A DNA stretch of 64,000 nucleotides, taken from contig NC_087379.1 in assembly GCF_963675165.1 (NCBI RefSeq), positions 8,149,839 to 8,213,838 on the forward strand, in the 5' to 3' direction. Shown piece by piece: positions 37,108 to 64,000 of the stretch (its first letter is position 1; each line of letters opens with the position of its first letter). The stretch comes from Halichondria panicea (lineage: Eukaryota; Porifera; Demospongiae; Suberitida; Halichondriidae). The notes under the pieces were generated by a model. The model was not told the origin of the DNA. It saw nothing but the letters and a program-made list of their open reading frames with translations, and did not search any database. The translations under genes were made by a program, and so were the position numbers.

Positions 37108-37513
37108 CTGTGTATTGTGTGTATTGTGTATAATATTGTATTTTAGCAGCTCATTAATTTTTGTGTGTATACAGCGATTATGTGTTTTAGATGTATCGAC
37201 CCGTTTCAATTACATATGGGATCACCTGACAGGGTTCAGGGAGTTCACACCTCCGAGTTTCAGCGAATTAAATGCTCGAGGCGCTTATTTTTCGCTGCTT
37301 TGAAAATAATTAGATCAACTAAAATTAATGCTTTAGTAATTTTTGGCTATGATTATGGCCGGCCGGCACTGCCCACTTGTTGATCAAACATTTTATCCTG
37401 TACTTGTGTCTACAGCAATATAAACTAAGAGTCAATTGCAACATGACATGCAGTGTCTAATAAATATAGGGTGGGTGGGGCTGGTCTCCTGCAGCAATTA
37501 ATGCATGATACTC
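37108..37513. other. Convergent spacer between ACAP and the LRR gene
   Basis: This 406-bp spacer carries plus-strand 'aataaatata' near 37459, a possible ACAP poly(A) signal. No gene or repeat family was recognised. Confidence 0.5.
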
Positions 37514-38911
37514 TCAACATAATGTACATTTGTAAGAATAAATAATTGTTGAGTTACAGCTAGTAGTGCTGTGAGATGAGAAGCAGTCGTCCTGGTCAGT
37601 GGGGAGAGGTGGGCAGTCATCCAATAACTCCAATCTTGGTAGAACTTGAAACACCCTGTGTGTCAGTGCAGCAGAGACAACAATTATCATAACTCAATGT
37701 GAATGTACACCGCATTTCCATACCATGGATTATCACATAATTAATCAGTAGTTTGGGACTCTTTTATGTTTGTTGGATATACCTGTATCTGTAGTCGGGA
37801 GCATCAGCAGCTGGATTGCCCTTCATTGTTAGTGTCTTTAAGAGAGGGTACTTTCTTGCTAAGGACTGCAAATTCGTCATGGAAACAATGTTATTATTAG
37901 CAATGGATAGGTGTTCCAGATTTGGTGACATTGGTAGACTTGTAAATGAAGTAATACGATTCCTTGATAAGTTCAAATAAACGCAGCTGGGTAGAGTAAC
38001 TTTCTTCATACTGGAGAGAGAGTTGTCAATTAGTTGCAGGCGTTTGCATAAGTGCAGTCGATTGAGGCAGCGATGGAAGTTCCTCAACTGATACTCATCT
38101 CCAAGATTTTGATACGACAAGTTGACCACCTGAAAATATAAAATATACGATTGTTCTATGGGTATGACTAGTGCAGTACCTCTGTGTGTTCCCAATCCTC
38201 TGAAACATTTCTGTAATCTTTCCAATCAAGACTTCTCTTACAGTACATGACTGAGTGAGATGCGTACTGCGAGGTGACGTTACGAGGACCCTCTCTGACT
38301 CGTGGAGAATGGAGAGCACTTCCTCTGAGTGTGTACTCGCCCTCAGTTCTTGCAACCTGTCTGTCAGAAGGATCTGGGTTGGTGTTTAGCTCAAACCATC
38401 TGCTGAACTGGTAGTTAGAGCTGGGAAGATTCTGCAATATACAATGAGGAATAAATAAATCTTATAAATCTATAGCTATACATGTATAAAAACAGTTAAA
38501 TTACTATTGAACAGCTATACATGCAGGGTCAGCATGATAATCTCACAAGCCTTTCGATCACACTTCTTGGGGGGCCCGGCCACCTAGCAGCTATCAGTTC
38601 AGCTAGGTGCATTGTAGTGCCCTATATGCTACCACCGAGTAATGGACTTACCTTGGCCAAGAGTGAGTGTTGTTGAGAGGTGCCGTCATCTTGATGAAGG
38701 ACGAGGGAGGTCTGCCTCAGTAGAGTGTGGTGTGCTGGGTCGCTGGACTGCATCTCACTATATATCTTGCACAACTTGACAGCACACATCTATGTAGAGC
38801 AATAATGAGTTCACACCAAACCTTGTTAATACCCTTAGTGCAAACGAAAAAGAAGTACTTTGTAACTGCATGGTTTACCTTTTCCTTCACATAATCCATT
38901 AAAACATACAT
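37514..38911 (-). CDS. Small leucine-rich-repeat protein
   Basis: Minus-strand exons 38911-38879, 38789-38652, 38431-38180, 38129-37783 and 37655-37514 join in frame to 303 residues. The first ATG (MYVLMDYVKEK) has an in-frame stop just upstream. The N-terminal half has no recognised domain. The C-terminal half carries LRR units of the short protein-phosphatase/SDS22 style (VVNLSYQNLGD, LQLIDNSL, CVYLNLSRNRITSF, LEHLSIANNNIVSM, LLKTLTMKGNPAAD) and ends in an LRR-cap-like YRYRVFQVLPRLELLDD. Such proteins are often cytoskeletal or ciliary adaptors, but the specific family was not recognised. The first exon (11 residues) is the least certain part. Confidence 0.75.
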
Positions 38912-39579
38912 TATCTTTGTCGCTCTCAATTATATAAGCTGAAACAATGGCAAGCAGATCATAATATAATTATGATGAGCCAATTCAGTGCCAACGGCTT
39001 ACGTTAAAAAAAAAAGCGATCTGGCCAGAAACTGCTTAGGGGATAAGTACTACTTTTTAAGGTAGCATAAGTACTGCTTTTTGAAGGCAGCATAAGTACT
39101 ACTTTTTAAGGTAGCATAAGTACTACTTTTTAGGGTAGCATAAGGTACTGCTTTCGAGGGCAGCATAAAGTACACTACACCTAGCAGTGCATACTGAGAG
39201 TTACAGAACTCCGGATAAAGTAGCGCTCTGATGGCAGATGCCGGTTTCCCGACACCCAACCACCAGATCCGGAGCCCCATGAATAACCACAAGCGCTACT
39301 TTGGGTCACCGGAAGTGGTTTGTATAAAGTAGGCAGTGAATCATTGCAAGGTGCAGGGACAAGCCCCTCCCTCTCACTCTCTAGCCACACCTCTCTTGAG
39401 AAATGAAGGAATGTTATTTGACACTCACAGTGCTGGCTAGAGGACCTGGTACACAACACAAGGCCTTAAGGAGGGTAAATCTACTCTTGTCAGTAAAATA
39501 TCGAATATGACTTTATATGTACCCCATATTCTCGTACAGACAACACCTCTCCAAGCATACTATTACAATATTAAGAACC
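38912..39579. promoter_or_regulatory. Divergent spacer LRR gene / CYB5RL with tandem repeat
   Basis: This 668-bp head-to-head gap holds about five copies of a 30-32 bp unit ('gcataagtactactttttaa' with variants) at 39040-39175. An acceptor-like 'ctcgtacag' at 39539 suggests a spliced 5'UTR for CYB5RL. Confidence 0.55.
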
Positions 39580-41126
39580 ATGGACAATTTGGAGGACCCT
39601 TTATCGTACCTACCGGACCCTCCTGACGAGCCGTTGCCTAGCGACTGTTGTGGCACAGGGTGCACTCCATGCGTTATGGACATCTACCACGATGAGCTGC
39701 AAACATGGACGACACTGGTTGCCATGACACCACTGGAAAGAGCCGCTTGGAGACGTGAAAAACTGGGACGTTTAGAGGGAAGAGAGTTGCCTGTCAAGTC
39801 TGCATTGTCTACAAATGAGTTCACAGCACTTACGGTGAAGGATATTGTACAAGTTACAGAGGATTCATTTGTGTACACTATATCTCTGCCTGAGGGTCGT
39901 TGCCTGGGTTACCAGCCTGGCCAGCACTGCATACTCAGGGGAGTGATACCCTAACCCTTCCATCTATTGTGGTACTAAACATAATTTTAACTGAGTATCA
40001 TGCTCTTGCCTATAATTATATTAATTTGCCCCCCCCCCCCCCCAGGATCTCAGATTCATTTGTAATTCTGATGACTTCGCCCCTCCTACATTTTTAATTT
40101 GCCCAATTCGCCCCCCTGATCCAAATTCCTGGATGCATCCCTGGGTACCCAAGCTTACTAGTGTTAATATTTCTACAGGGGGTTTGTTGATTCTTCCGAA
40201 TGCTCTGTGACTAGACAGTACACACCCATCTCTCCACCGGATGAAGATGGTTCCTTTGCTGTGCTTATCAAGGTGAGCAGCCAGCACACACAGTATGCCA
40301 TAATGGTTAGTATCTGCATGTCCTATAATAGTCTCTCTACAGTTGTACAAAGATGGACGTGTGTCGGAGGTGATTAGAGCGTGGGCGGTGGGAACAGTGA
40401 CTGAATGGAAGGGGCCGTTTGGTGGACTCAACTACAAGCCAAACAAGGTACGAATATTAGGTAGTTACAATAATCAGTGTAGTTTGGGTTTAATTAATTA
40501 TCATTTTTTAGGTTGTCCATGTAAATAGATATGGAGGCTGGAGCTAACTAACTTCTGTATAACACACACACACACACACAGTACAGACACACCCCCCACA
40601 CACACACAGTACAGACACACACACCCCCCCACACACACACACACAGTACAGACACCCCCCCCCCACACACACAGTACAGACACACACCCCCCCCCCACAC
40701 ACACAGTACAGACACATTGGCATGCTGGCCTGTGGGACCGGGATAGCACCCATGATTCAAGTCATCAGAACAATCATTGAGAACGAGGCTGACGACACCT
40801 TCATACATCTTGTCTATTCCTCCAGCACACAACACACTGTCCTACTAAAGAAAGAACTTGACAAATACACTGCTTATTGGAACTTTAGATCACTGTACGT
40901 ACTTAGCAAGGCTTCTGAACAAGACACTAAAGCTGATCCAGGACTGATGAAGTATGGAGATAAAGTACACTATGGGAGACTAGACTGTGAGGTGGTGGGC
41001 AGGGAAATGCCTCGGGCATGTACAGAGAGTCATGTGCTGATCTGTGGAACTAGGTCATTCGACAAAGACATGATAAACCATCTTAGTAAGATAGGCTATT
41101 CCAAAAACATGTATCACAAATTTTAA
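39580..41126 (+). CDS. CYB5RL: CYB5RL, NADH-cytochrome b5 reductase-like (complete copy)
   Basis: Predicted FAD/NAD(P)H oxidoreductase. Exons 39580-39938, 40179-40272, 40343-40447 and 40707-41126 join in frame to 325 residues; human CYB5RL is about 315. The N-terminal oxidoreductase-like motif reads LPSDCCGTGCTPCV..IY. The FAD-binding half has PGQHCILRG and RQYTPIS; the NAD half has LACGTGIAPM and ends in a short aromatic C-terminus. The exon 1/2 junction that restores the family alignment (CILR-GFVDS) needs a donor at 39939, where the sequence is CAG|GGGAGTG instead of CAG|GTGAGTG. Either this is a non-canonical or mutated donor, or a base-call error. Without that splice the protein would stop after 125 residues. 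Exons 2-4 recur in the duplicated unit at 49207-50135. Confidence 0.85.
40021..40150. repeat. Possible dispersed repeat at the left duplication breakpoint
   Basis: A 17-C run is followed by 'aggatctcagattca', A+T-rich sequence, a C-run at 40110-40116, and 'ctgatccaaattcctggatg'. This mix inside an intron looks like a repeat fragment, but no second copy apart from the duplication is in the window. Confidence 0.35.
40573..40712. repeat. CA/C-rich minisatellite repeating a splice acceptor
   Basis: Five copies of 'cacacacagtacagacac' separated by C-runs precede exon 4 of CYB5RL, whose own start is cacacag|TACAGACAC. The unit-2 equivalent is 49590-49721 with different C-run lengths. Confidence 0.85.
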
Positions 41127-41467
41127 TTTAAATGGAGAGTCAACATTTTTTTAGTTCGTACCATAATCAAATGCAACAAGTTATATTATGAATGCTGCAC
41201 GGTACGCGTGGTGGAGGTGGCTCTGAGTTAGAGGAGGACTCACTGAGAACCCTAATCTACTAATCCACCACCCTAACCACTAAGCCACACCTATTCTTCC
41301 CAAAGCTATCATTCATCACATTTATTATGCTCAGAGTTATTTTATTGTTTTACAGCAGATTCCAGATTTGTAGAAAATTAATAATTATAATAACCCTAGA
41401 TGCATGTACAATAAAATAAAAAAAAATTAGGAATACATAAATTAGAATATTGATTGTTCTACATAGT
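41127..41467. other. Convergent spacer CYB5RL / OGA, unit 1
   Basis: The spacer contains a plus-strand AATAAA at about 41411 (CYB5RL) and the reverse complement of AATAAA near 41340 (OGA). A tRNA-like stretch lies at 41205-41295. Confidence 0.5.
41205..41295 (-). repeat. tRNA-like relic or SINE head
   Basis: On the minus strand 'tggcttagtggttaggg' fits a Pol III A box (GGCTTAGTGG), and 'gggttctcagtgagtcc' vaguely resembles a degenerate B box. No cloverleaf closes. The unit-2 copy is at about 50214-50300. Confidence 0.35.
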
Positions 41468-44400
41468 TCACAATAGTCGTCCTAAGATAAGCACATCTTC
41501 GGGTGGTGATCCTTTACCAGATGCATCGGCATCCAATCTGAGTATCTTGAAACCGATCTTCTTATAGAATTTCTTTGCACGTTCGTTTTGGGCGTTCATT
41601 TCCAGATGTACACCATGAGACCCTGCAGCAGGCAAGAGCATCAAGTGCACAGTTGTGAGCTATTGAAACCAGCTACTTGGAGGAACACTACAGGCTCTTA
41701 TATATACTTAAAATATACTTGTGAGGCTTGCTTAAATATGAATATGTTTTACGTACAAGGCAAACTACATCACAACAAGATAATTCCCAGATGGACAGAT
41801 AACCTTTAGCCTTGAGAGTGGCGAGGAGCGTCTTGAGCATACGTGTGCCCACTCCTTGTCCTTGTGCCCTCTTCATGAGGTCGATGTGCATGTGAGAGGG
41901 GTAGTCACGCTGGAGACGAGGCGGGAGGAAGAAGCTAGGCCGGAACAAATCCTCAAGCAACTCCTGCAAAGGACATGGTAACAGCTAGTACATAAATTTT
42001 AATTTGCTGCAATTTGTGTTTTAGGCTTTTAGAGAGCAATGTCATCGTGTGAGTATAACTTTATGTACTTTTTTTCCTATAATAGTATACACTGCAAAAC
42101 TTCAACTATAGCACACAAATAACATGCTCACGACTTATAAGACCTAGAACAGTACCTCCTCCGGGTTGGGTCCCTTCTCTCTGACCTCCAGAGGGGGAAC
42201 TGGGTAGTCGTTGGTGACGAGTGGTAGCCACTCCTCCAGGTACGCCTTGTAGAAAGCCTGAGAGTCTAGCGTGGCCAACATGTAGCCGCACACACCCAGA
42301 GCATCCTCCAGAACAAAGCAGAGGTCAGGGCTGAGGGTGAGGTATGGACCAACAAACCTGGGGGGGAGGGGGGTTGAAATAAGTTATGAACAAAAAACCA
42401 TAATGGATTGTGTAACGATATGGGAACGAAGTGCGAACAGGTTAGTGAACTGAGAATGTATTGTCTAAGTGATCTCATGAATGCCCTCCTAGTGATATAC
42501 AAGCATAAGTACAGTACAATGTTTATAATCAATACGTGTCATCATGTACGTGATAAGCGAACAGCTACTACACAACGTACTGTACATGGTATGATAAGCA
42601 GCTCACCTGTCTCCCAGCATGTTAGGAAAGTTGGGGAAGTCCCTTGTTGCATCCCGCCCACTGTTTCCCGTCTCCAGGCAGGTCTGATAGACGAGGGCCT
42701 TGTCGTCAAGACGATACGGGCGTATGGTGTATATCACAGGGGAGGGGGGCTCGGGAGGAGTGTGACCACGCCCATAAAGCTTCTTAGAGCCTCGAACTTG
42801 AGGAAGTAGCCGCTAGAGGGGAACGAGGGCAAAGGTCACACAACCAAGGCCTAACTGGAGGGGGGTCACTGAACATGAGAGGCCTTTAGCATAAATTGCT
42901 TAAGAACCAGAAAAAACCAGTTTCCACTTGAATGAAGATTGTTTTCTAAGAACCAGAAAACCATACCTATTCTACAGTGGAACCTCTGAACAAACCCTCC
43001 GCCTTTATAAGCTTTAACAAGATCAGAGGCTCCACTGTAACCATGGTTTTGAACCACCATCAAAGGTACAAAATCACAAATTATTTTTTCAATACATTGT
43101 AGATACAACAATTCAAAAACAAGCATTTTGCAAAAAACAGAAGGTGAGAATGGAAATGAGAGTGAGTTGTTGTCTATGACAACTGTTGAGAGATAATAAT
43201 TATTCTGATAATTCATAAAGTGATTTTTTAAGTAGTTTCTTTATTGCTGAATCAACTGTTAATTAAATTGTGGTTGATGATTAAAATTATTATTATTAAT
43301 TATTAATTAAACAATTATTGTGAGAATGAATTTAAGCTAGAGCAGAAATTATTAACAACTTAACAAGAATAGAGTGTTTGTTACAGCAGTAATCACCAGC
43401 ACCAGAGAGAGCATCCAAGAGAGAGACAAGCACCACACACACACACACACACACACCACATAAGGGGCCACCTGCCTAAACAGCCCTCAGGCTAATTATT
43501 ATTATTAGATTAGAATGGTGTGTCCATGTTGTGTATCGGCACACAGTGGCAGACGTTATACATCGCGTGCTACACAGTGGTTAGGGGGGAGAGAGAAAGC
43601 CCAACGGTTACCTTCCATACCAGAATAATCATATAGAATAAGGGATTCGACTACATGCATACCGTAGTTGATTAATTACAGCGCCACTCTAATTATACGA
43701 AATTTAAATAATTATTTCTCCCTATATCACCATACGTTCATTTGGTACATATCGTATAAGCGCGAAATTTTCGAGTCATTTGAATTTCGTGAAATGGCCT
43801 CTAAAAGCATTTCGTTGGAATAAATTTGCGCTATTTGGTCAAATCATAGATAAAAGAGAAAGGGATTGGCAACAGAATGCACTTCCGGTACCATCCGTGT
43901 TTCGCCTCGAGGCTTACTTCTAACGTGGGAGTCTAAACATGAATAATTCATGAGAATTGTTTTTGCCGTCTGTAAAAAAGTCTACAAGCAGTTCTACTGC
44001 TAAACATCAACTTCACCTCATTTGTGTGGCGATTTGGGACATAGCACACTACTTAGTAACACAACCTTAGCTATAGGAACACAAGCATGAAAAAGCCTCT
44101 GACAGAGGCTCTCTGTACCTCTAGCTACTTCACGAAAACCAAGATTATATTCTAAATGATACCTACCATCAGGGGGCATGTGTTTAAGTTGGAGGGGTCT
44201 TTGAGAAGTAGGCATTAGACACAATAAGTTTCCCGGGTTTTCGCGGGAGTTTTAGGGCGAAACACGGATGGTTTCAGGCCCATCTGTGTACATTCAATGT
44301 AAAAGCATCACGTGAACTGCCCCCGTTGCCAATCCCTTTCTCTTCTATCTATGATCAAATGACGTTGCGTCTTCTGTTAGATATAAGCATTTCGTGGACC

Positions 44401-47400
44401 TAATTTTCACGGATTGCTAACCCACGAAAACAGCGAAAATTAAGTCCTTCGAAAATTTTGTGCTGTACGGTTGTCTTGCAATGTCTGGCGCTGTAATGTA
44501 CATCAACTACGGTGGAGATAGAGGCCTACATACCTGCATTTCAGCTGTGATTCCGCCCCTAGGAACATGGGGCTCATGGTCTGGGTTGACATCACTCCCA
44601 CCAGCCTCTGTGCGGTGGAGGGAATGCCAAGGATTAGTGAAGGCCATTGTAAACATGTCTTAATTGCACAGCTGGCAGCCATTAGACAATCACACACCCA
44701 CACAACATGGTATCGAAACAATAACAAGATTTTATACGTCATCTAAACTTGTAAAAAGCTGACACATTATCAAACAATTGCTTCCTTTGCAAAGACTATA
44801 CATGTACACACTGTATAGCGAGTATATTTCGAGGGCATAAATGTTTGCGATTTTCGTTGATAAAGCATGTACCGCGAACATTTATACCCTCACATGCATG
44901 CATACTGTAAAAAGGCTACAGTTGAGCCTCGGTTATCCGAATCCCGGTTATCCGAATCCTCGATTATCCGAATGCTAGAGCATAGTGCAATCTGAGCATG
45001 CGCAGTAGGAAATTGCCCACGTGGCTGGCAAAAAGAAGCCAGCTGGCATGTTTTGATTATCCGAATATTTCACTTACCCGAATGGGCCCGGGGACAAAGG
45101 TGTTCGGATAACCGAGGCTCAACTGTACTATTAAATCTGCAAAAATCTTTCTAATGGCATTTTCCGCAAAACTTTATATATACCCTCAAAATATACACGC
45201 TATATGGTACATGTACACACACAAGATGCTTACCCAACCAGGCCACATAAGAGTCCAGGAGCATTGTGGTCTCCTTGGCATCCCAGCTGTACTGGTAGAG
45301 GTCATAGAGGAGTGGGCGGTTGGGGATGGTGGTCAGGTGAGCATACATGTCACTGACGCACGCACATACAGTATGAAACTTCTTAGCTCTTTCACACCAG
45401 CGAGAGACCTGGGGAGGGGGGGGGGGAGAAAAGGCCAATCAATATGTAGGCAGCATAATTATCATGTACTGTACACATAAGTTTATAATAAAGACATGCT
45501 GCAGCTGCCAATAGTGGTTACTGGTAGTGGAAATAACTTCTAAGCCATTGCACAACTGCTAACAGCTGCTAGGGTGTCAGGTGATCAGCTACTTCACATG
45601 GTAATACATAATCACATGATACAATACAATTAGACACCCCATTAGTACATATGTAGCTCACATCGACTAAGTTCATCCCTTCCTCCAGAGGAGAGTCGCA
45701 TGTTTCACCGTCACTCTGCAGTCCATCGTCCGGCTCCATTCTCTCCACACTCCTCACACCACCGCCCACTCCACCCACGCAGTCCACTGGTTCACACCCC
45801 TTCAACTTCTCGTAGCTCTGCAGCAAACTATACCCGGGCGCATTCTCTTTAAGCCAGCAAAACTCCTTCAAAACGTGCAAGGCCTGTTCCCCGTGCTGGT
45901 GGGGAAGGAAAAAATAGTCTACCATTAGACAGAGATCTTTGAATGTGAATTGCTCTGATATAGAAGCCTCTTCAATAGCGCCCTCCACTCTAGGTGGTGA
46001 GGGCACACCCATTGCACTACTGCCTATTTCTTCCTGATCAGAGCAGCCCATTTGTTCAGCATCTATTGCCTTGGCTATGGACTCGGCATCTTTCACGGGT
46101 TTATAGTGTTCTGGTTTGCGTCGTGGGATTTTGAACTCTGCGAACCAATCCTTGAGAGAAGCTACCAGTGCCAATTTGGGGTCGTAAAATGAATCGCCGT
46201 TCCCACTACGTGCGCATTCCTTAGATTTTATATCACTTGAAATATCCAGCGAGGTTAGGTCCGGTGATTCTTCCATCTCGAGCAGCATGGCTTGTCTTGT
46301 TGGGGAGGCTCTTTTGTTGAGAGTATTGGAGCACTTGCTCCACTGGGCTAGGGTGTGTATGGCCACATAGTTGGCACCGTATTCACAGTTTGGGTTTGTT
46401 ACTACACCGCGAAGTTTTTGTAGTAGACCTACGGATCGTCCGTCGTATGGACCGAGGAATAATCGGCGTTGATCGTAGTCGTTGGCGTGGATATTGTCCC
46501 AGATGACAGGTGGACGTTTAATGACTGCCGACAATTCTTCAATGGACTCGACTGATATGACCTTTGATATGACCTTAGGACCTGTAAAGAAAACGAAACA
46601 CAATCACTATAACTACAGAGTTGTAGCCGTATCGAAACAATGGAATGGTACAAGTAGTGACTCAGCTGTTCTATTGTACACATGTAGTTAAGAGAAAAAG
46701 GGAGTGCTAGTGTTTATGGTTAAGAATGCAAAAACAATCATTGCTCTGTTAGTAAACCCCAGACTGAATGGAGTCCCTACAAGATTGCACACACACACAA
46801 TCACATGAGGGGAGTAGAGATCAAAGGATTGGCTGATATCGCATGAAACTTGATCTACAACAACTTTTAAAAATGTAATATAATAATAATTATCACGGAA
46901 ATTAGTCTAACTTTCTGATAAGATGAAAGGCTCAGAGGTCATGACTGTAATGCCACTAATTGTTGACCTCACCTGTCCACATGATATCAATGTCAGGGTG
47001 CAGCTCGGCTCCAATGTGTAGCAGATACTGGGAGTCTGCCACGGTGGGTAGTGCCCGGGAGGCACAATATTCTGTGAGGGAGGGGTTATAAGATAATGGT
47101 GTAGATGAGGGGTTAAACGCCAATAGCATGTTTAACTCGTAACGTACAACACTGATGATTCAGACATGTGGAACAGAAAATGCACAATACAAGAAGTTAG
47201 GCATAACAAGAGATTAAGTGCTGCAATTAGTTGGACACAGTTGGTAGGTCACCTGTTGGACAGAATAGGAATGCCTCAGGGCGCTCCAGGTGTGTGTACA
47301 TGTCGTTAGTGATGGTCACTTGAGCATGAGCAAAGGAGGGGAACACTTTCTCATCGGCAGGACACATGTCAGACTCTATGTCATCAAATAGCATGGAAAA

Positions 47401-48410
47401 CGATTTGCAGCCTAGAGCAGCCACCTGGATGAGGAGGGGGCGGGGGTTAGGCACATACACTTGTGGAAAACCAAAATAAATTTCGGATGTACATCAAGGA
47501 TTTACAATAATTATAGCTCAACTATAGGATATGTTATTAGCTCAACTAGGCTGGACAAATATGAACAATAGCGTATGGAAATGTCAGTGCCAAGAGAGTT
47601 AACTAGGTGGTGGGCATGCACACGTGAGATCACCTGATCCAGTTTTCTCTTGAGTAATGTGACATCTTCACAACTGGAGAAGGTGATATCGAGTCCCGGG
47701 GCAATGGCGTATATAAACAGTACCCCTCTGTCCCTGCACTCCTGGATGAGCAGGGAGAGAGTGTTGGCCTCCTCCAGGGTGTAAAGGTCACGCCAGTATG
47801 CACGATGCTTGTCATCGTCTTTAGGGGCGTACAGGTACACGTTGAGTCCCCACACCGACATACTGTGTGTGTGTGTGGGTGGGGTGTGATGTAGCTACAT
47901 AGATTATGTACAAACGAATAATTTATATTGTGCTGGCAATAATTATGTCAAATCTCTTTTGCTTTGATGCACAGAAACTACTTATTTATTGCTGTACGCT
48001 GTTAAAAATATTACTTACTGAGTGAATAGATCACACCTCTGCTCATGGCTCCATGGTCGTCCATAGAAGCCTGCACACACACAGGGACTAGTTACACACA
48101 CACAGAGAGCATTGCCTTGCATGCCATGTCCCATATAATTATAATTATAAAAATTAATAATAAAAAAAATAATTATGCATTTAATAATTATTTGTGGATT
48201 TGTCATATTTAATAGAGCGAATGCAATAAATCCACAGAAACACATGCAATACTGCACATAAGGCCTGTATCTAAACAGCTACAGTGTAATTAAATAGCTT
48301 AAAAATACAAGCATAGCCGGCCACAGGCGCTACTGTACATCATGATAATTATGACGTTTGTTACCTTCAACCACTCCACATAGAAATTGTCTTTGACTTC
48401 TTGCCGCCAT
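41468..48410 (-). CDS. OGA: OGA, protein O-GlcNAcase, copy 1
   Basis: Hydrolase that removes O-GlcNAc from Ser/Thr of nuclear and cytoplasmic proteins. Minus-strand exons 48410-48365, 48070-48019, 47862-47634, 47424-47253, 47071-46973, 46581-45662, 45408-45234, 44607-44534, 42812-42607, 42357-42156, 41963-41804 and 41622-41468 join in frame to 829 residues; human OGA is about 916. The GH84 domain starts GVVEGFYGRPW, with catalytic Asp123-Asp124 in SMLFDDIE and substrate-site residues in [12 protein letters not shown] charged linker and the stalk helices follow ([32 protein letters not shown]). The C-terminal acetyltransferase-like domain ([46 protein letters not shown]) ends DVLILGRLL, as in human. 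The gene converges on CYB5RL. Copy 2 differs by at least three residues. Confidence 0.96.
42975..43037. mobile_element. 63-bp pogo/Tigger-like MITE
   Basis: The ends are inverted repeats: 'cagtggaacctctga' on the left and the reverse complement of 'tcagaggctccactg' on the right (one mismatch; perfect in the unit-2 copy, 52027-52089). TA dinucleotides flank both sides, as expected for a Tc1/mariner/pogo target. Confidence 0.75.
43843..44356. mobile_element. About 515-bp fold-back element in the OGA intron, copy 1
   Basis: The left arm 'catagataaaagagaaaggg' continuing 'attggcaac' is inverted at the right end as 'gttgccaat...ctatctatg'. A second inverted pair, 'ccatccgtgtttcgcc' and 'ggcgaaacacggatgg', lies inside at unequal distances. 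No coding capacity is visible. The equivalent in unit 2 is about 52895-53409. Confidence 0.65.
44813..45206. mobile_element. Fold-back repeat carrying a nested MITE
   Basis: The left end 'tatagcgagtatatttcgag' is matched in inverse by the right end 'aaaatatacacgctata'. Inside, 'gggcataaatgtttgcg' and 'cgcgaacatttataccc' form another palindrome. The unit-2 copy (53872-54056) lacks the 207-bp insertion at 44919-45125. Confidence 0.65.
44919..45125. mobile_element. 207-bp pogo/Tigger-like MITE, present only in unit 1
   Basis: The ends are perfect inverted repeats of 23 bp beginning 'cagttgagcctcggttat'. TA lies on both sides (44917-44918 and 45126-45127). The unit-2 sequence 'aaaaaggctactattaaat' is the exact empty site with a single TA. 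'ggttatccgaat' words recur near the left end. No transposase frame exists, so it must have moved in trans. Confidence 0.95.
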
Positions 48411-48852
48411 CTGATGTATATCACACACTGTTATCTGTCTACAGACATGTTTATAAGCTTCAACAACAATTTTATTGCACACACGATGCGTAATAAAAAT
48501 ATACCAGCTTCGCTGTCGAGTTGACCTTTGAACCCTTGTCAGACCGGATTGACTACTTTACAATATTTCATTCAAATGTACTGTCTATACTCTTAATTAG
48601 AATGACTGTTGAAAATAATGTTTATAACATGAACTTGAGTTTTGTTGGGGATACATACAAGTGACATGCACACACACCATTCATACACATGTGCACATAA
48701 AACACGTATGTAATCACAAATAAATCAAGGCAACAGAAAAGTCCTTCCTGGCACTGTAACGCTGATAAACGGTTCAAAAGAGAGTACATATAAAGAGAGC
48801 CTTAACATGAAAGAGGTAGAAAAGACAAAGTTACAATAGTAGAAAAACAGTA
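48411..48852. other. Spacer between OGA copy 1 and TENT4 fragment
   Basis: The 442-bp A+T-rich spacer has a minus-strand AATAAA near 48473, just upstream of the OGA start, probably the poly(A) signal of the TENT4-like transcript. The same spacer recurs at 57267-57708. Confidence 0.5.
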
Positions 48853-49135
48853 CTAGCTACTCACATCGTTCGTGGTTGATTGTGTTGAGGAGATGGGCGT
48901 GATCGGGGCAGGCTGCTGTTGCGTGTAATGATTTGTCATAGAATAAGAAGCACCATTAACGGGACTATACACCATCGAGGGGTACTGTTGTTGGACGTAT
49001 GTGGGTGTGGTCAATAGCGGCCCCAGCTGTACAAAATACGGTGAACTAGATGCTTGCGGTGAGAGGGGGTGGGCAGGCCAGTTGGCATCCACCCAGTTTC
49101 GATACTCGTCAACTTCAGCCGATACTTGAATAATT
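48853..49135 (-). pseudogene. Truncated 3' end of TENT4-like gene (unit 1)
   Basis: Only the last ~93 codons are present, from IIQVSAEVDEYRNWV to the stop. They look identical to the end of the complete gene at 57709-59115. The reading frame runs into the duplication junction and lacks the whole catalytic domain and promoter. Confidence 0.92.
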
Positions 49136-49206
49136 CCCCCCCCCTGATCCAAAATCCTGGATGCAGCCCTGGGTACCCAAGCTTACTAGTGTTAATATTT
49201 CTACAG

Positions 49207-50135
49207 GGGGTTTGTTGATTCTTCTGAATGCTCTGTGACTAGACAGTACACACCAATCTCTCCACCGGATGAAGATGGTTCCTTTGCTGTGCTTATCAAG
49301 GTGAGCAGCCAGCACACACAGTATGCCATAATGGTTAATATCTGCATGTCCTATAATAGTCTCTCTACAGTTGTACAAAGATGGACGTGTGTCGGAGGTG
49401 ATTAGAGCGTGGGCGGTGGGAACAGTGACTGAATGGAAGGGGCCGTTTGGTGGACTCAACTACAAGCCAAACAAGGTACGAATATTAGGTAGTTACAATA
49501 ATCAGTGTAGTTTGGGTTTAATTAATCATCATTTTAGGTTGTCCATGTAAATAGATATGGAGGCTGGAGCTAACTAACTTCTGTATAACACACACACACA
49601 CACAGTACAGACACACACAGTACAGACACACACACCCCCCCACACACACACACACAGTACAGACACCCCCCCCCACACACACAGTACAGACACACACACC
49701 CCCCCACACACACAGTACAGACACATTGGCATGCTGGCCTGTGGGACCGGGATAGCACCCATGATCCAAGTCATCAGAACAATCATTGAGAACGAGGCTG
49801 ACGACACCTTCATACATCTTGTCTATTCCTCCAGCACACAACACACTGTCCTACTAAAGAAAGAACTTGACAAATACACTGCTTATTGGAACTTTAGATC
49901 ACTGTACGTACTTAGCAAGGCTTCTGAACAAGACACTAAAGCTGATCCGGGACTGATGAAGTATGGAGATAAAGTACACTATGGGAGACTAGACTGTGAG
50001 GTGGTGGGCAGGGAAATGCCTCGGGCATGTACAGAGAGTCATGTGCTGATCTGTGGAACTAGGTCATTCGACAAAGACATGATAAACCATCTTAGTAAGA
50101 TAGGCTATTCCAAAAACATGTATCACAAATTTTAA
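49207..50135 (+). pseudogene. CYB5RL: CYB5RL 5'-truncated copy (exons 2-4 only)
   Basis: Exons 49207-49300, 49371-49475 and 49716-50135 match exons 2-4 of the upstream gene and keep the frame, with RQYTPIS and LACGTGIAPM intact. Exon 1 (oxidoreductase-like motif, start of the FAD domain) and the promoter are missing, because the duplication junction lies in intron 1. A product would need a new start. Confidence 0.9.
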
Positions 50136-50478
50136 TTTTAATGGAGAGTCAACATTTTTTTAGTTCGTACCATAATCAAATGCAACAAGTTATATTATGA
50201 ATGCTGCATGGTACGCGTGGTGGAGGTGGCTCTGAGTTAGAGGAGGACTCACTGAGAACCCTAATCTACTAATCCACCACCCTAACCACTAAGCCACACC
50301 TATTCTTCCCAAAGCTATCATTCATTATGCTCTTCTATACCCAGAGTTATTTTATTGTTTACAGTGGATTCCAGATTTGTAGAAAATTGATAATTATATA
50401 ATAACCCTAGATGCATGTACAATAAAATTAAAAAATTTTAGGAATACATAAATTAGAATATTGATTGTTCTACATAGT

Positions 50479-53400
50479 TCACAATAGTCGTCCTAAGATA
50501 AGCACATCTTCGGGTGGTGATCCTTTACCAGATGCATCGGCATCCAATCTGAGTACCTTGAAACCGATCTTCTTATAGAATTTCTTTGCACGTTCGTTTT
50601 GGGCATTCATTTCCAGATGTACGCCATGAGACCCTGCAGCAGGCAAGAGCATCAAGTGCGGTGAGCCATTGAAACCAGCCACTTGGAGGAACACTACAGG
50701 CTCTTAAATGAAACAATCCGTATAATAATTATACTTATAATATACTTGTGAGGCTTGCTTAAATATGAATATATTTACGTACAAGGCAAACTACAACAGA
50801 ATTAACACAACAAGACAATTCTCAGATGGGGACGAACAACCTTTAGCCTTGAGAGTGGCGAGGAGTGTCTTGAGCATGCGTGTGCCCACTCCTTGTCCCT
50901 GAGCCCTCTTCATGAGGTCGATGTGCATGTGAGAGGGGTAGTCACGCTGGAGACGAGGCGGGAGGAAGAAGCTAGGCCGGAACAAATCCTCGAGCAACTC
51001 CTACAAAGGACATGGTAACAGCTAGTACATAAATTTTAATTTGCTGCAATTTGTGTTTTAGGCTTTTAGAGAGCAATGTCATCGTGTGAGTATAACTTTA
51101 ATGTAATTTTTTTCCTATAATAGTATACACTGCAAAACTTCAACTATAGTACACAAATAACATGCTCACGACTTATAAGACCTAGAACAGTACCTCCTCC
51201 GGGTGGGGTCCCTTCTCTCTGACCTCCAGAGGGGGAACTGGGTAGTCGTTGGTGACGAGTGGTAGCCACTCCTCCAGGTACGCCTTGTAGAAAGCCTGAG
51301 AGTCTAGCGTGGCCAACATGTAGCCGCACACACCCAGGGCATCCTCCAGAACAAAGCAGAGGTCAGGGCTGAGGGTGAGGTATGGACCAACAAACCTGGA
51401 AGGGGGGGGGGTTGATAAACAGAAAACCATAATGGATTATGTAAATGATATGGGAACGAAGTGCGAACAGGTTAGTAAACTGAGAATGATTGTCTAAGTG
51501 ATCTCATGAATGCCCTCCTGGTGATATACAAGCATAAGTACAGTGCAAGCTGTGGACGCAAAAAAATGTTTATAATCAATACTTGTCATCATGTACATGA
51601 TAAGCGAACAGCTACTACACAACGTCCTGTACATGCATGTATGATAAGCAGCTCACCTGTCTCCCAGCATGTTAGGGAAGTTGGGGAAGTCCCCTGTTGC
51701 ATCCCGCCCACTGTTTCCCGTCTCCAGGCAGGTCTGATAGACGAGGGCCTTGTCGTCAAGACGATACGGGCGTATGGTGTATATCACAGGGGAGGGGGGC
51801 TCGGGAGGAGTGTGACCACGCCCATAAAGCTTCTTAGAGCCTCGAACTTGAGGAAGTAGCCGCTAGAGGGGAACGAGGGCAAAGGTCACACAACCAAGGC
51901 CTAACTGGAGGGGGGTCACTGAACATGAGAGGCCTTTAGCATAAATTGCTTAAGAACCAGAAAAAACCAGTTTCCACTTGAATGAAGATTGTTTTCTTTA
52001 AGAACCAGAAAACCATACCTATTCTACAGTGGAACCTCTGAACAAACCCTCCGCCTTTATAAGCTTTAACAAGATCAGAGGTTCCACTGTAACCATGGTT
52101 TTGAACCACCATCAAAGGTACAAAATCACAAATTATTTTTTCAATACATTGTAGATACAACAATTCAAAAACAAGCATTTTGCAAAAAACAGAAGGTGAG
52201 AATGGAAATGAGAGTGAGTTGTTGTCTATGACAACTGTTGAGAGATAATAATTATTCTGATAATTCATAAAGTGATTTTTTAAGTAGTTTCTTTAATTGC
52301 TGAATCAACTGTTAATTAAATTGTGGTTGATGATTAAAATTATTATTATTAATTATTAATTAAACAATTGTTGTGAGAATGAATTTAGCTAGAGCAGAAA
52401 TTATTAACAACTTAACAAGAATAGAGTGTTTGTTACAGCAGTAATCACCAGCACCAGAGAGAGCATCCAAGAGAGAGACAAGCACCACACACACACACAC
52501 ACACACACCACATAAGGGGCCACCTGCCTAAACAGCCCTCAGGCTAATTATTATTATTAGATTAGAATGGTGTGTCCATGTTGTGTATCGGCACACAGTG
52601 GCAGACGTTATACATCGCGTGCTACACAGTGGTTAGGGGGGAGAGAGAAAGCCCAACGGTTACCTTCCATACCAGAATAATCATATAGAATAAGGGATTC
52701 GACTACATGCATACCGTAGTTGATTAATTACAGCGCCACTCTAATTATACGAAATTTAAATAATTATTTCTCCCTATATCACCATACGTTCATTTGGTAC
52801 ATATCGTATAAGCGCGAAATTTTCGAGTCATTTGAATTTCGTGAAATGGCCTCTAAAAGCATTTCGTTGGAATAAATTTGCGCTATTTGGTCAAATCATA
52901 GATAAAAGAGAAAGGGATTGGCAACAGAATGCACTTCCGGTACCATCCGTGTTTCGCCTCGAGGCTTACTTCTAACGTGGGAGTCTAAACATGAATAATT
53001 CATGAGAATTGTTTTTGCCGTCTGTAAAAAAGTCTACGAGCAGTTCTACTGCTAAACATCAACTTCACCTCATTTGTGTGGCCATTTGGGACATAGCACA
53101 CTACTTAGTAACACAACCTTAGCTATAGGAACACAAGCATGAAAAAGCCTCTGACAGAGGCTCTCTGTACCTCTAGCTACTTCACGAAAACCAAGATTAT
53201 ATTCTAAATGATACCTACCATCAGGGGGCATGTGTTTAAGTTGGAGGGGTCTTTGAGAAGTAGGCATTAGACACAATAAGTTTCCCAGGTTTTCGCGGGA
53301 GTTTTAGGGCGAAACACGGATGGTTTCAGGCCCATCTGTGTACATTCAATGTAAAAGCATCACGTGAACTGCCCCCGTTGCCAATCCCTTTCTCTTCTAT

Positions 53401-56400
53401 CTATGATCAAATGACGTTGCGTCTTCTGTTAGATATAAGCATTTCGTGGACCTAATTTTCACGGATTGCTAACCCACGAAAACAGCGAAAATTAAGTCCT
53501 TCGAAAATTTTGTGCTGTACGGTTGTCTTGCAATGTCTGGCGCTGTAATGTACATCAACTACGGTGGAGATAGAGGCCTACATACCTGCATTTCAGCTGT
53601 GATCCCGCCCCTAGGAACATGGGGCTCATGGTCTGGGTTGACATCACTCCCACCAGCCTCTGTGCGGTGGAGGGAATGCCAAGGATTAGTGAAGGCCATT
53701 GTAAACATGACTTAATTGCACAGCTGGCAGCCATTAGACAATCACACACCCACACAACATGGTATCTATTCACTAGAAACAATAACAAGATGTTATACGT
53801 CATCTAAACTTGTAAAAAGCTGACACATCAAACAATTGCTTCCTTTGCAAAGACTATACATGTACACACTGTATAGCGAGTATAATTATTTCGAGGGTAT
53901 AAATGTTTGCGGTTTTCGTTGATAAAGCATGTACCGCGAACATTTATACCCTCACATGCATGCATACTGTAAAAAGGCTACTATTAAATCTGCAAAAATC
54001 TTTCTAATGGCACTTTCCGCAAACTTTATATATACCCTCAAAATATACACGCTATATGGTACATGTACACACACAAGATGCTTACCCAACCAGGCCACAT
54101 AGGAGTCCAGGAGCATTGTGGTCTCCTTGGCATCCCAGCTGTACTGGTAGAGGTCATAGAGGAGTGGGCGGTTGGGGATGGTGGTCAGGTGAGCATACAT
54201 GTCACTGACGCACGCACATACAGTATGAAACTTCTTAGCTCTTTCACACCAGCGGGAGACCTGGGGAGGGGGGGGGGGAGAGAAAAGGCCAATCAATATG
54301 TAGGCAGCATAATTATCATGTACTGTACACATAAGTTTATAATAAGGACATGCTGCAGCTGCCAATAGTGGTTACTGGTAGTGGAAATAACTTCTAAGCC
54401 ATTGCACAACTGCTAACAGCTGCTAGGGTGTCAGGTGATCAGCTACTTCACATGGTAATACATAATCACATGATACAATACAATTAGACACCCCATTAGT
54501 ACATATGTAGCTCACATCGACTAAGTTCATCCCTTCCTCCAGAGGAGAGTCGCATGTTTCACCGTCACTCTGCAGTCCATCGTCCGGCTCCATTCTCTCC
54601 ACACTCCTCACACCACCGCCCACTCCACCCACGCAGTCCACTGGTTCACACCCCTTCAACTTCTCGTAGCTCTGCAGCAAACTATACCCGGGCGCATTCT
54701 CTTTAAGCCAGCAAAACTCCTTCAAAACGTGCAAGGCCTGTTCCCCGTGCTGGTGGGGAAGGAAAAAATAGTCTACCATTAGACAGAGATCTTTGAATGT
54801 GAATTGCTCTGATATAGAAGCCTCTTCAATAGCACCCTCCACTCTAGGTGGTGAGGGCACACCCATTGCACTACTGCCTATTTCTTCCTGATCAGAGCAG
54901 CCCATTTGTTCAGCATCTATTGCCTTGGCTATGGACTCGGCATCTTTCACGGGTTTATAGTGTTCTGGTTTGCGTCGTGGGATTTTGAACTCTGCGAACC
55001 AATCCTTGAGAGAAGCTACCAGTGCCAATTTGGGGTCGTAAAATGAATCGCCGTTCCCACTACGTGCGCATTCCTTAGATTTTATATCACTTGAAATATC
55101 CAGCGAGGTTAGGTCCGGTGATTCTTCCATCTCGAGCAGCATGGCTTGTCTTGTTGGGGAGGCTCTTTTGTTGAGAGTATTGGAGCACTTGCTCCACTGG
55201 GCTAGGGTGTGTATGGCCACATAGTTGGCACCGTATTCACAGTTTGGGTTCGTTACTACACCGCGAAGTTTTTGTAGTAGACCTACGGATCGTCCGTCGT
55301 ATGGACCGAGGAATAATCGGCGTTGATCGTAGTCGTTGGCGTGGATATTGTCCCAGATGACAGGTGGGCGTTTAATGACTGCCGACAATTCTTCAATGGA
55401 CTCGACTGATATGACCTTCGATATGACCTTAGGACCTGTAAAGAAAACGAAACACAATCACTATAACTACAGAGTTGTAGCCTTATCGAAACAATGGAAT
55501 GGTACAAGTAGTGACTCAGCTGTTCTATTGTACACATGTAGTTAAGAGAAAAGGGAGTGCTAGTGTTTATGGTAAAGAATGCAAAAACAATCATTGCTCT
55601 GTTAGTAAACCCCAGACTGAATGGAGTCCCTACAAGATTGCACACACACACAATCACATGAGGGGAGTAGAGATCAAAGGATTGGCTGATATCCATGAAA
55701 CTTGATCTACAACAACTTTTAAAAATGTAATATAATAATAATTATCACGGAAATTAGTCTGATAAGATGAAAGGCTCAGAGGTCATGACTGTAATGCCAC
55801 TAATGTGTTGACCTCACCTGTCCACATGATATCAATGTCAGGATGCAGCTCGGCTCCAATGTGTAGCAGATACTGGGAGTCTGCCACGGTGGGTAGTGCC
55901 CGGGAGGCACAATATTCTGTGAGGGAGGGGTTATAAGATAATGGTGTAGATGAGGGGTTAAACGCCAATAGCATGTTTAGCATGTTTAACTCGTAACGTA
56001 CAACACTGATGATTCAGACATGTGGAACAGAAAATGCACAATACAAGAAGTTAGGCATAACAAGTGATTAAGTGCTGCAATTAGTTGGACACAGTTGGCA
56101 GGTCACCTGTTGGACAGAATAGGAATGCCTCAGGGCGTTCCAGGTGTGTGTACATGTCGTTAGTGATGGTCACTTGAGCATGAGCAAAGGAGGGGAACAC
56201 TTTCTCATCGGCAGGACACATGTCAGACTCTATGTCATCAAATAGCATGGAAAACGATTTGCAGCCTAGAGCAGCCACCTGGATATGAGGGGGGGGCGGG
56301 GGTTAGGCACATACACTTGTGGAAAACCAAAATAAATTTCGGATGTACATCAAGGATTTACAATAATTATAGCTCAACTATAGGATATGTTATTAGCTCA

Positions 56401-57266
56401 ACTAGGCTTGACAAATATGAACAATAGCGTATGGAAATGTCAGTGCCAAGAGAGTTAACTAGGTGGTGGGCATGCACACGTGAGATCACCTGATCCAGTT
56501 TTCTCTTGAGTAATGTGACGTCTTCACAACTAGAGAAGGTGATATCGAGTCCCGGGGCAATGGCGTATATAAACAGTACCCCTCTGTCCCTGCACTCCTG
56601 GATGAGCAGGGAGAGAGTGTTGGCCTCCTCCAGGGTGTAAAGGTCACGCCAGTATGCACGATGCTTGTCATCGTCTTTAGGGGCGTACAGGTACACGTTG
56701 AGTCCCCACACCGACATACTGTGTGTGTGTGTGGGTGGGGTGTGATGTAGCTACATAGATTATGTACAAACGAATAATTTATATTGTGCTGGCAATAATT
56801 ATGTCAAATCTCTTTTGCTTTGATGCACAGAAACTACTTATTTATTGCTGTACGCTGTTAAAAATATTACTTACTGAGTGAATAGATCACACCTCTGCTC
56901 ATGGCTCCATGGTCGTCCATAGAAGCCTGCACACACACAGGGACTAGTCACACACACACAGAGAGCATTGCCTTGCATGCCATGTCCCATATAATTATAA
57001 TTATAAAAATTAATAATAAAAAAAATAATTATGCATTTAATAATTATTTGTGGATTTGTCATATTTAATAGAGCGAATGCAATAAATCCACAGAAACACA
57101 TGCAATACTGCACATAAGGCCTGTATCTAAACAGCTACAGTGTAATTAAATAACTTAAAAATACAAGCATAGCCGGCCACAGGCGCTACTGTACATCATG
57201 ATAATTATGACGTTTGTTACCTTCAACCACTCCACATAGAAATTGTCTTTGACTTCTTGCCGCCAT
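50479..57266 (-). CDS. OGA: OGA, protein O-GlcNAcase, copy 2
   Basis: Minus-strand exons 57266-57221, 56926-56875, 56718-56490, 56278-56107, 55916-55818, 55435-54516, 54260-54086, 53659-53586, 51862-51657, 51395-51194, 51000-50841 and 50633-50479 have exactly the same lengths as copy 1 and also give 829 residues. All domain motifs and catalytic Asp123-Asp124 are kept. Differences seen by eye: Arg to Gly (RDATGD), Asn to His (GPHPEE) and Ile to Val (FKVLRLD), besides silent changes. Both copies therefore appear intact. The upstream neighbour here is the complete TENT4-like gene. Confidence 0.95.
51863..53585. other. OGA intron (copy 2) with the same MITE-like elements
   Basis: It corresponds to 42813-44533. 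The 63-bp MITE is at 52027-52089 with perfect inverted ends, and the fold-back element is at about 52895-53409. Confidence 0.6.
53872..54056. mobile_element. Fold-back repeat without the nested MITE
   Basis: It is the counterpart of 44813-45206. It shows the empty site 'ggctactatt' where unit 1 carries the 207-bp element. Confidence 0.65.
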
Positions 57267-57708
57267 CTGATGTATATCACACACTGTTATCTGTCTACAG
57301 ACATGTTTATAAGCTTCAACAACAATTTTATTGCACACACGATGCGTAATAAAAATATACCAGCTTCGCTGTCGAGTTGACCTTTGAACCCTTGTCAGAC
57401 CGGATTGACTACTTTACAATATTTCATTCAAATGTACTGTCTATACTCTTAATTAGAATGACTGTTGAAAATAATGTTTATAACATGAACTTGAGTTTTG
57501 TTGGGGATACATACAAGTGACATGCACACACACCATTCATACACATGTGCACATAAAACACGTATGTAATCACAAATAAATCAAGGCAACAGAAAAGTCC
57601 TTCCTGGCACTGTAACGCTGATAAACGGTTCAAAAGAGAGTACATATAAAGAGAGCCTTAACATGAAAGAGGTAGAAAAGACAAAGTTACAATAGTAGAA
57701 AAACAGTA

Positions 57709-59115
57709 CTAGCTACTCACATCGTTCGTGGTTGATTGTGTTGAGGAGATGGGCGTGATCGGGGCAGGCTGCTGTTGCGTGTAATGATTTGTCATAGAAT
57801 AAGAAGCACCATTAACGGGACTATACACCATCGAGGGGTACTGTTGTTGGACGTATGTGGGTGTGGTCAATAGCGGCCCCAGCTGTACAAAATACGGTGA
57901 ACTAGATGCTTGCGGTGAGAGGGGGTGGGCAGGCCAGTTGGCATCCACCCAGTTTCGATACTCGTCAACTTCAGCCGATACTTGAATAATTGAACTAAGA
58001 AGCGAGTCACATTTTGGAGTCGGGTTATCTCGAGTCAGCACTAGAGTGTGTAGCCGCAGGAAAGCTTGCTCGAATGATTGCTTCACTTGCCACATGCCGT
58101 AGCACCCCCTGCTAGCATTGCCGGCTTTAGGGTCAGTGGGGTCAATAATGAACAACATCGATCGATCATCAGCCAGATCATTTTTGTCGAAGTACGAACC
58201 TCCATCCAACACTGTGATACCTGTCTTCATGTAGTTGAAATTTCGGCCATACAACTCGAAAAACTCGATTAGAAGAACTCCTAGATTTGCGTCAGAGTCT
58301 GCAGCTTTGTACCTCGGGTGAACTTGCAGAAAGTTGACAATGAGAAGGATGATACTGTACGAACTGATGCCACCATAGAAGACCTCGTTGAGATTACGCT
58401 GAGTCAGGAACTGCTTTATCACAAGGGCAAGTTTGGGCAGGGCAGGATACTCGTGAATGAACGATGTTATCATTCTCGCACTTTCGATTCCTGTATCTCG
58501 ATTAAAACTGATGTCCACTTTGACCTCCGTTACTTTGTCGATGAATCTGATGATTGGAATGCTGGTCTTGTCCAGGACTAGAATACTACCGTCTACAGCA
58601 ATGTCAGCGGTGACAAAATCCTCTTCAAGCGAGAACAGAGGCAGCTTAGCCCACTGGCCTAGAACAACCAAGTCAATATCACTTGTGGGTAGAAACAAGT
58701 TGTTACACACACTTCCAAACACACTCACAACGGCATGAGGCCATCGGTTTTTGATTATATGAGCCACTCGGGTTATAACATCGGCCCTCATCCGGATCTC
58801 AGACGGTCGAGGTTTCAGATACTCGTAGCAATCGCTAATCTCCTCATGAAGCCCAGGTGGGTCTCGTGGATAGTCTTTAGTTTTCCACGGTGTACAGGTC
58901 TTCGTCGATTCTCCCGAAAGCAGTTTTTTTCTTTTGGACATGCTAGGGATAGTTTGTTCTTGAGCTAGTATACTAGCATCAGTACGTGCCGCTACATCGA
59001 CACTTCCAAGTGGGAGGTAGTCCGGCTGTGACGTGGTTGTTTCCTCAATTTTGGCCCACGTTTCAGAGGCGGGAGTAATACCTGTATGTCTTACTGATGT
59101 TGTGGTGGAGGCCAT
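57709..59115 (-). CDS. TENT4: TENT4-like non-canonical poly(A)/nucleotidyltransferase
   Basis: Predicted terminal nucleotidyltransferase of the PAPD5/PAPD7 (Trf4) group, which adds or trims-and-adds 3' tails on RNA. A single coding exon gives 468 residues from the ATG at 59115, which follows an acceptor (tctgcag), so the 5'UTR is spliced. The catalytic signature VFGSVCNNLFLPTSDIDLVV has Gly134-Ser135 and metal-binding Asp146 and Asp148; the third Asp is in VKVDISFN. The PAP-associated domain follows (QFLTQRNLNEVFYGGISSYS, LGVLLIEFFELYGRNFNY). The last ~75 residues are Gln/Pro/Ser-rich, without the basic tail of vertebrate TENT4 proteins. A gtgagt overlapping the last codons could be a donor, but no further exon was found. 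It lies upstream of OGA copy 2 on the same strand. Confidence 0.92.
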   Translation of the reverse strand: MASTTTSVRHTGITPASETWAKIEETTTSQPDYLPLGSVDVAARTDASILAQEQTIPSMSKRKKLLSGESTKTCTPWKTKDYPRDPPGLHEEISDCYEYLKPRPSEIRMRADVITRVAHIIKNRWPHAVVSVFGSVCNNLFLPTSDIDLVVLGQWAKLPLFSLEEDFVTADIAVDGSILVLDKTSIPIIRFIDKVTEVKVDISFNRDTGIESARMITSFIHEYPALPKLALVIKQFLTQRNLNEVFYGGISSYSIILLIVNFLQVHPRYKAADSDANLGVLLIEFFELYGRNFNYMKTGITVLDGGSYFDKNDLADDRSMLFIIDPTDPKAGNASRGCYGMWQVKQSFEQAFLRLHTLVLTRDNPTPKCDSLLSSIIQVSAEVDEYRNWVDANWPAHPLSPQASSSPYFVQLGPLLTTPTYVQQQYPSMVYSPVNGASYSMTNHYTQQQPAPITPISSTQSTTNDVSS

Positions 59116-60174
59116 CTCCTGCAGACAAATCAACATTCAGAAGGTCAACATATGCTTCTGAAACAATGTTTCACTGCTAAGCATACACTTAAAGCGTAAT
59201 TCGACACAAAACACAACATGTTAATTGGGATGTAATGTATTCTTTTCAAGCAAACCATAGAAAACATGCTCCAATTTACTATGACATTAAATTAACGCTC
59301 ATGTAAAATCTATAGCACCACTCACGTGTTTGCAGAGGGTAACAACAGAGAGTGGTTGGTAAGTGTTTTTCTATTTAAATAGTTCCTGCAGGAAACAACA
59401 CAGTAACAGCAGCTACACAACTGACGGCATGCTATATGAGGTACTATCATGGTTAATATAGCAAGGAATCAAAAGCTTTCCAAGTATTCTAACATTCTAG
59501 GGATAGCTGAGGCAATGAATATTTAATTTGTTAGAGACAAGTGACCCTTAGTGCAATATTCCCAGAAGGATTTCGCATATTGTTAAGAATAGTCACTGAG
59601 AGTACAAAAAATGCAGAGTGTTCTTAGAATTATAAAACCTGACATCACAAACAACGCTGGTTGTGCAATACCTCATAAACATTATTAGGTGTGTCTTGTA
59701 CAATGTATACACAGGGAACTAGTAACTTCACTGAGAGGGACTTACATTAATGCTTCTAATATATTGTATGTACCAATATTAGCTATAAAATTGATATTAT
59801 GTACATGATAATAATCAGTAGAATGATTAAATGAACATGTGCTAACAGATAATGGACTAGTTTGCACGTGTGTGTATCTGACTAGCTTGACTAGCTACAA
59901 CTCACTCTGTGAAGTGATGAAGGTGTGTTTTGGCAGATAGCCGAGTCAGATATGAGAGTTGGTTCAGAGTTGTCTTCAAAAACAGATCAGTAATAGATTT
60001 CTCAAACAAAGACTTTCTCTTGATAGCGTGGGTATTTGAACTACGCCCACTGACACACCCTCAGGAGAACCACGCCCCCTTTGTTGTTGTATTCTTATTA
60101 AAGCACAGTAGTAATTTACTCAAAGAAGTAGAATTTTCGTGACAGTTTTTGTTTGCTGTTCAGGCCATTGAGAT
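59116..60174. promoter_or_regulatory. Divergent intergenic region TENT4-like / SDR
   Basis: The 1.06-kb head-to-head spacer is A+T-rich. It must contain the TENT4-like 5'UTR exon upstream of 59129 and both promoters. No repeats, RNA genes or convincing frames were seen. Confidence 0.5.
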
Positions 60175-61473: not shown

Positions 61474-61653
61474 CAATTCCACCATGTTTGTATGTATGTG
61501 CGTATAATTCTGTTCAATGTCTACTGCATATTTTGTATAATTCCTACACTTCATATTATTATTTGTAAACATTCAATTATCAAAAACTTGTACATTTCAA
61601 CAACACGACAAAAATTAATTACAACATAATAATTATAATAAGTTAGTTGGAAA

Positions 61654-64000
<2,347 letters not shown>

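Follow-up and report, generated by a model that had tools for sequence, protein, structure and literature searches.

A gapless tandem pair of O-GlcNAcase genes with allele-like divergence in the assembled genome of the sponge Halichondria panicea

In the assembled genome of Halichondria panicea, two O-GlcNAcase (OGA) genes lie in directly adjacent repeat units of about 9 kb, which share 4 bp of microhomology (AATT) at their edges and differ from one another about as much as alleles seem to do in this assembly. To a real, young heterogeneous tandem duplication of ~9 kb uniting two haplotypes we give about an even chance, and that the junction between the units is real, mostly as a duplication of this kind, we consider rather probable. 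The window, that is, the whole stretch of 64,000 nucleotides analyzed here (C3:8149839-8213838), belongs to contig C3 (8.48 Mb) of a 131.46-Mb genome assembled in 39 contigs. It also holds a repeat of ~670 bp, with 90% identity between its copies near both window ends (2419-3088 and 63243-63909), and long dinucleotide (CA)n arrays near 36.2 and 62.6-62.9 kb. The features of the duplicated region are as follows.

40111..49135, no strand: duplicated unit 1, 9025 bp, defined by self-comparison and global alignment
49136..57991, no strand: duplicated unit 2, 8856 bp, defined by self-comparison and global alignment
41468..48410, minus strand: OGA copy 1, 12 exons, 829 codons
50479..57266, minus strand: OGA copy 2, 12 exons, 829 codons
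44917..45125, no strand: MITE-like insertion of 209 bp, restricted to unit 1, with a TA at the edge
41317..42650, no strand: divergent block holding 54 of the 99 substitutions, found by the clustering of differences

Self-comparison of the window matched 40111-44919 to 49139-53981 and 45126-49135 to 53979-57991, so that the units form adjacent direct repeats with no gap between them. The strict adjacency, direct orientation and defined junction that characterize a heterogeneous tandem duplication were thus present in both units. The initial annotation had described a tandem duplication of roughly 9 kb with two OGA genes, matching along its whole length and with twelve OGA exons of equal size in each unit; self-comparison and alignment agreed with this description, and both OGA coding sequences were open. 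Global alignment of unit 1 with unit 2 gave 8765 aligned columns, in which we counted 99 substitutions (1.13%; 72 transitions and 27 transversions) and 34 indels. The largest indel was the 209-bp MITE-like insertion, copies of which, among the best candidates scored, were found at 100% identity on C1, C3 and C7, with a further C1 copy at 99% and a C8 copy at 97%. Because these copies are nearly identical, the insertion is probably recent.

The predicted gene in both units can be assigned with confidence to animal O-GlcNAcase, the enzyme that removes O-GlcNAc from proteins. Its 12 exons are equal in length between the units, with AG/GT at all splice borders, and each coding sequence is 2490 bp long. 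When the exon pieces were joined, the best match to an O-GlcNAcase in PDB reached 9.2e-159, and the catalytic NAGidase (GH84) domain was recognized by PF07555 (E 1.4e-83). The translations of both copies contain the stretch FDDIESD, with the Asp-Asp motif of the catalytic domain that is named in PMC4424335. The stalk and the C-terminal acetyltransferase-like domain were covered by three stretches aligned to PDB 9qen, and Acetyltransf_1 was detected with an E value of 2.9e-8. The two copies have their 442-bp upstream interval and exon 1 in common, and in each the catalytic domain is open, so both are probably expressed.

Searching the whole genome with the PF07555 profile returned 4 matches, all within the two units, each of which contributed two exons; no OGA lay elsewhere. 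The O-GlcNAc transferase (OGT) profile PF13844 also gave 4 matches, all at one locus on C16. Judged from the assembly, each chromosome set would carry two OGA genes per one OGT gene. With PF07555 and the queries 44000-46000, 58000-62500 and 37500-41300 we detected no third OGA and no unplaced sequence representing the other haplotype of the locus. The earlier statement that OGA is normally single-copy in animals is in line with PMC4424335, where the one exception is Trichoplax, with two putative OGAs. Among the matches listed, no other report of a duplicated OGA was apparent from titles and the beginnings of abstracts.

The two OGA copies differ at 23 coding positions, 20 of which are silent and 3 of which change an amino acid (R646G, N722H and I805V), leaving 826 of 829 residues identical; dN and dS were 0.0016 and 0.036 by NG86, and 0.0018 and 0.024 by YN00. 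The differences are strongly clustered, as a stretch of 1331 bp takes up 54 of the 99 substitutions; in 2000 permutations the mean was 22.6 and no count exceeded 31. Noncoding divergence reaches 5.6% in this divergent block versus 0.65% in the rest, and the units do not differ at all in their final 838 bp, which take in a polymerase gene fragment, OGA exon 1 and the 442-bp interval upstream of the OGA gene. In OGA exons 1-8 (44534-48410 versus 53586-57266), all 11 differences are silent. This corresponds to about 11 changes in 395 silent sites, the number of sites being an estimate, versus 30 in 4626 noncoding positions outside the divergent block (Fisher p 0.0002). CpG sites account for 4 of the 11 silent changes outside the block, so CpG can be only a partial cause of the excess.

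The duplication cuts into a gene at each side. The left gene presumably encodes a cytochrome-b5-reductase-like (CYB5RL-like) protein, and the right open reading frame (ORF) presumably a TENT4/Trf4-like poly(A) polymerase.

39580..41126, plus strand: CYB5RL-like reductase gene, exon 1 outside the unit; Pfam FAD_binding_6, NAD_binding_1 and Oxidored-like
49207..50135, plus strand: reductase exons 2-4 in unit 2, exon 1 missing; protein same as in unit 1
57709..59136, minus strand: complete TENT4/Trf4-like poly(A) polymerase ORF, 475 aa; Pfam MTPAP-like_central and PAP_assoc
48853..49135, minus strand: 3′ fragment of the TENT4-like polymerase ORF that closes unit 1; no difference from unit 2
49128..49144, no strand: unit junction, AATT microhomology followed by a C run, placed by alignment and edge comparison
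40022..40143, no strand: dispersed repeat of ~122 bp holding the left break; related sequences occur on C10 and C7, and the C5 copy of the intron lacks the repeat

It had been claimed that the junction cuts two genes whose outer copies remain whole. The cutting of both genes was borne out, as was the wholeness of the polymerase ORF at 57709-59136, but the reductase gene can be called only putatively whole. The four exons of the outer reductase gene are open; by eye, however, joining exon 1 to exon 2 at the canonical donor and acceptor (window 39940-40185) breaks the frame. A second copy of the 5′ part of this gene lies at C5:298510-299905, where the exon stretches are nearly identical and insertions break the frame; it lacks the repeat that holds the left break, and at the exon 1 donor and the exon 2 acceptor its letters, compared by eye, are the same as those of the window. 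The frame break at the exon 1/2 border may reflect either non-canonical splicing or an error in the gene model. The C5 match was rejected as a candidate second haplotype of the locus, because it covers nothing but the 5′ part of the reductase gene, with the frame shifted.

The left break falls in intron 1 of the CYB5RL-like gene, inside the dispersed repeat, and the right break within the coding sequence of the TENT4-like ORF. The left edge reads CCCAATTCG followed by CCCCCC, the junction GAATAATT followed by CCCCCCCCC, and the right edge GAATAATT followed by GAACT, with the 4 bp AATT common to both edges and the junction. Random joins gave a match of at least 4 bp in 1.7% of cases when the breaks were placed within 500 bp, and in 1.8% window-wide. 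The match to a simple join is inexact, in that the junction reads AATTCC where the repeat has AATTCG and its C run is longer; we assume a point change and slippage. BLAST detected no match between the left edge (39910-40310) and the right edge (57791-58191), and among the four loci compared none matched the right edge. An origin of the join by repeat-to-repeat recombination is therefore not supported. The window contains no N and no assembly gap between the copies.

On the reading that we prefer, the AATT microhomology would have mediated joining of the TENT4-like ORF to the dispersed repeat in the neighboring CYB5RL-like intron, leaving one chromosome with two complete OGA genes and, as by-products, the truncated reductase and polymerase pieces. 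Each unit would derive from a different haplotype of a single-copy gene, the two having come together either when the duplication arose, by exchange between homologues, or through a later crossover with single-copy chromosomes. We favor such a young heterogeneous duplication because the AATT junction is gapless and its edges offer no overlap that an assembler could use; from this assembled sequence we infer that the junction is present in the animal. That the divergence of the units is allelic rather than accumulated after duplication is the simplest account, because its level is like that of a candidate haplotig pair described below, the MITE-like element is in one unit only and the truncated pieces have not decayed. 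The proposal of a simple tandem duplication with about 4 bp of microhomology accordingly kept its tandem arrangement and its AATT, but not the word simple, since the differences look allelic and pre-existing rather than gathered after the event.

If the units had diverged after the duplication, the truncated pieces should have decayed. We examined 893 bp of them, namely 611 aligned bp of the reductase and 282 bp of the polymerase, and found 4 substitutions in them, all silent; the encoded protein is unchanged, and the 34 indels all lie elsewhere. Assuming that half of the divergence arose on the truncated lineages, the chance of seeing no amino-acid change and no indel was 0.017 with the rate measured outside the divergent block, or 0.0007 if the overall noncoding rate is applied. 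Given its small numbers, this analysis can show at most that the time since duplication was short.

As a second yardstick we probed 3-kb stretches of five unplaced contigs (C27, C22, C28, C39 and C23), of which only C27 and C22 served for comparison. C28 was dropped as a mosaic with C6 at 80-98% that also contained a dispersed family, and C39 and C23 were dropped because the stretches probed lie in repeat families. C27 (57 kb) had one full match, on C6 at 99%, and elsewhere only a repeat of ~400 bp. Over a 10-kb stretch it differed from C6 at 123 of 8943 positions (1.38%) by MAFFT and at 101 of 8888 (1.14%) in two BLAST pieces, with 1-33 differences per kb (BLAST); a tandem array accounts for part of the surplus by MAFFT. 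C22 matched C2 over 5 of 10 kb, at 1.51% divergence (MAFFT) or 1.41% (BLAST), and identity then dropped to 79%, which counts against a plain haplotig there. On the same scale the OGA pair stood at 1.13% (MAFFT) and 1.08% (BLAST, 95 of 8768), with 3-39 differences per kb, and it resembles the C27/C6 pair in both level and patchiness of divergence. We infer that C27 is a left-over haplotig and treat C22 as a candidate; other haplotypic sequence seems to have been kept in the assembly, which counts against a real duplication. Many lengths among the 19 small contigs examined from C18-C39 are exact multiples of 1000 (1000, 2000, 3000, 6000, 39000 and 143000), and we presume these contigs to be pieces cut by the scaffolding program. 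The sole COX1 match in the assembly, C1:5280527-5280718, is short and has two TGA inside; it probably represents mitochondrial DNA copied into the nuclear genome, with the mitochondrial contig missing from the assembly.

An artefact of assembly, already raised as an alternative in the initial annotation, in which each haplotype has one OGA and the two alleles were strung in tandem, would produce the same allele-like divergence. The dN/dS values and the lack of decay in the truncated pieces are as expected of alleles, the assembly yielded no second haplotype of the locus in a separate place, and the level and patchiness of divergence equal those of the candidate haplotig pairs, the haplotig status of these contigs being itself our supposition. 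We nevertheless regard a tandem made by the assembler as unlikely, and as less likely than a real duplication, because there is no gap at the junction, which shows microhomology, and the joined ends have no longer stretch in common. False duplications, according to PMC9516828, are mostly separated by gaps, although sometimes joined by sequence that reads do not support; the OGA pair is like them in its adjacent copies, allelic divergence and origin in one haploid assembly, and unlike most of them in its gapless microhomology join. A true allele-specific tandem duplication within one contig is also described there.

About equally improbable, in our judgement, is an older tandem duplication within a single haplotype, followed by divergence, partial homogenization by gene conversion and retention of both OGA genes by selection. 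Such a history would explain the mosaic of 5.6% noncoding divergence in one block against 0.65% in the rest, as well as the 838 identical bp at one end, and the low dN/dS would then mean that both copies are needed. Against it, the truncated pieces are undecayed, and the match to haplotig-like divergence would have to be a coincidence.

The young heterogeneous duplication that we prefer has a counterpart in ace-1 of Anopheles gambiae and Culex pipiens, where two different alleles lie in strict tandem on one chromosome and one of the breaks carries a transposable element (PMC5137868 and PMC10997782); the routes discussed are unequal exchange in a heterozygote and later recombination with single-copy alleles (PMC10997782). 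The OGA pair shares with ace-1 its adjacent allele-like copies, a repeat at one break and the same two candidate routes. The ace-1 case, however, is read-supported and segregating, spans 203 kb and 12 genes and is under known insecticide selection, whereas the OGA case spans 9 kb with one complete gene, has no known selection and is known from assembled sequence alone. Heterogeneous duplications described so far are few and lie in insecticide-target genes (PMC5137868); that the fused OGA allele pair is one outside this class is a tentative proposal. Trichoplax adhaerens likewise is a non-vertebrate animal with two OGAs, but there the hydrolase domains are 60% identical and the HAT-like part is missing from one protein (PMC4424335), unlike the 826 of 829 residues shared here. 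Two OGA genes in an animal thus have a precedent. What is new here is that the divergence of the pair looks allelic.

Should the duplication prove false, gapless tandem pairs with allele-like divergence would need read support before gene gain is claimed. Should it be true, it would provide a small heterogeneous duplication with a readable junction, whose truncated neighbors form a built-in clock that separates post-duplication divergence from joined alleles. It is possible, though we hold it with some doubt, that divergent OGA alleles have become fused on one chromosome, whether segregating or fixed, so that heterozygosity is locked in and the gene dose of OGA is doubled relative to the single-locus OGT. 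A true duplication would be a natural shift of the OGA:OGT gene ratio in an animal.
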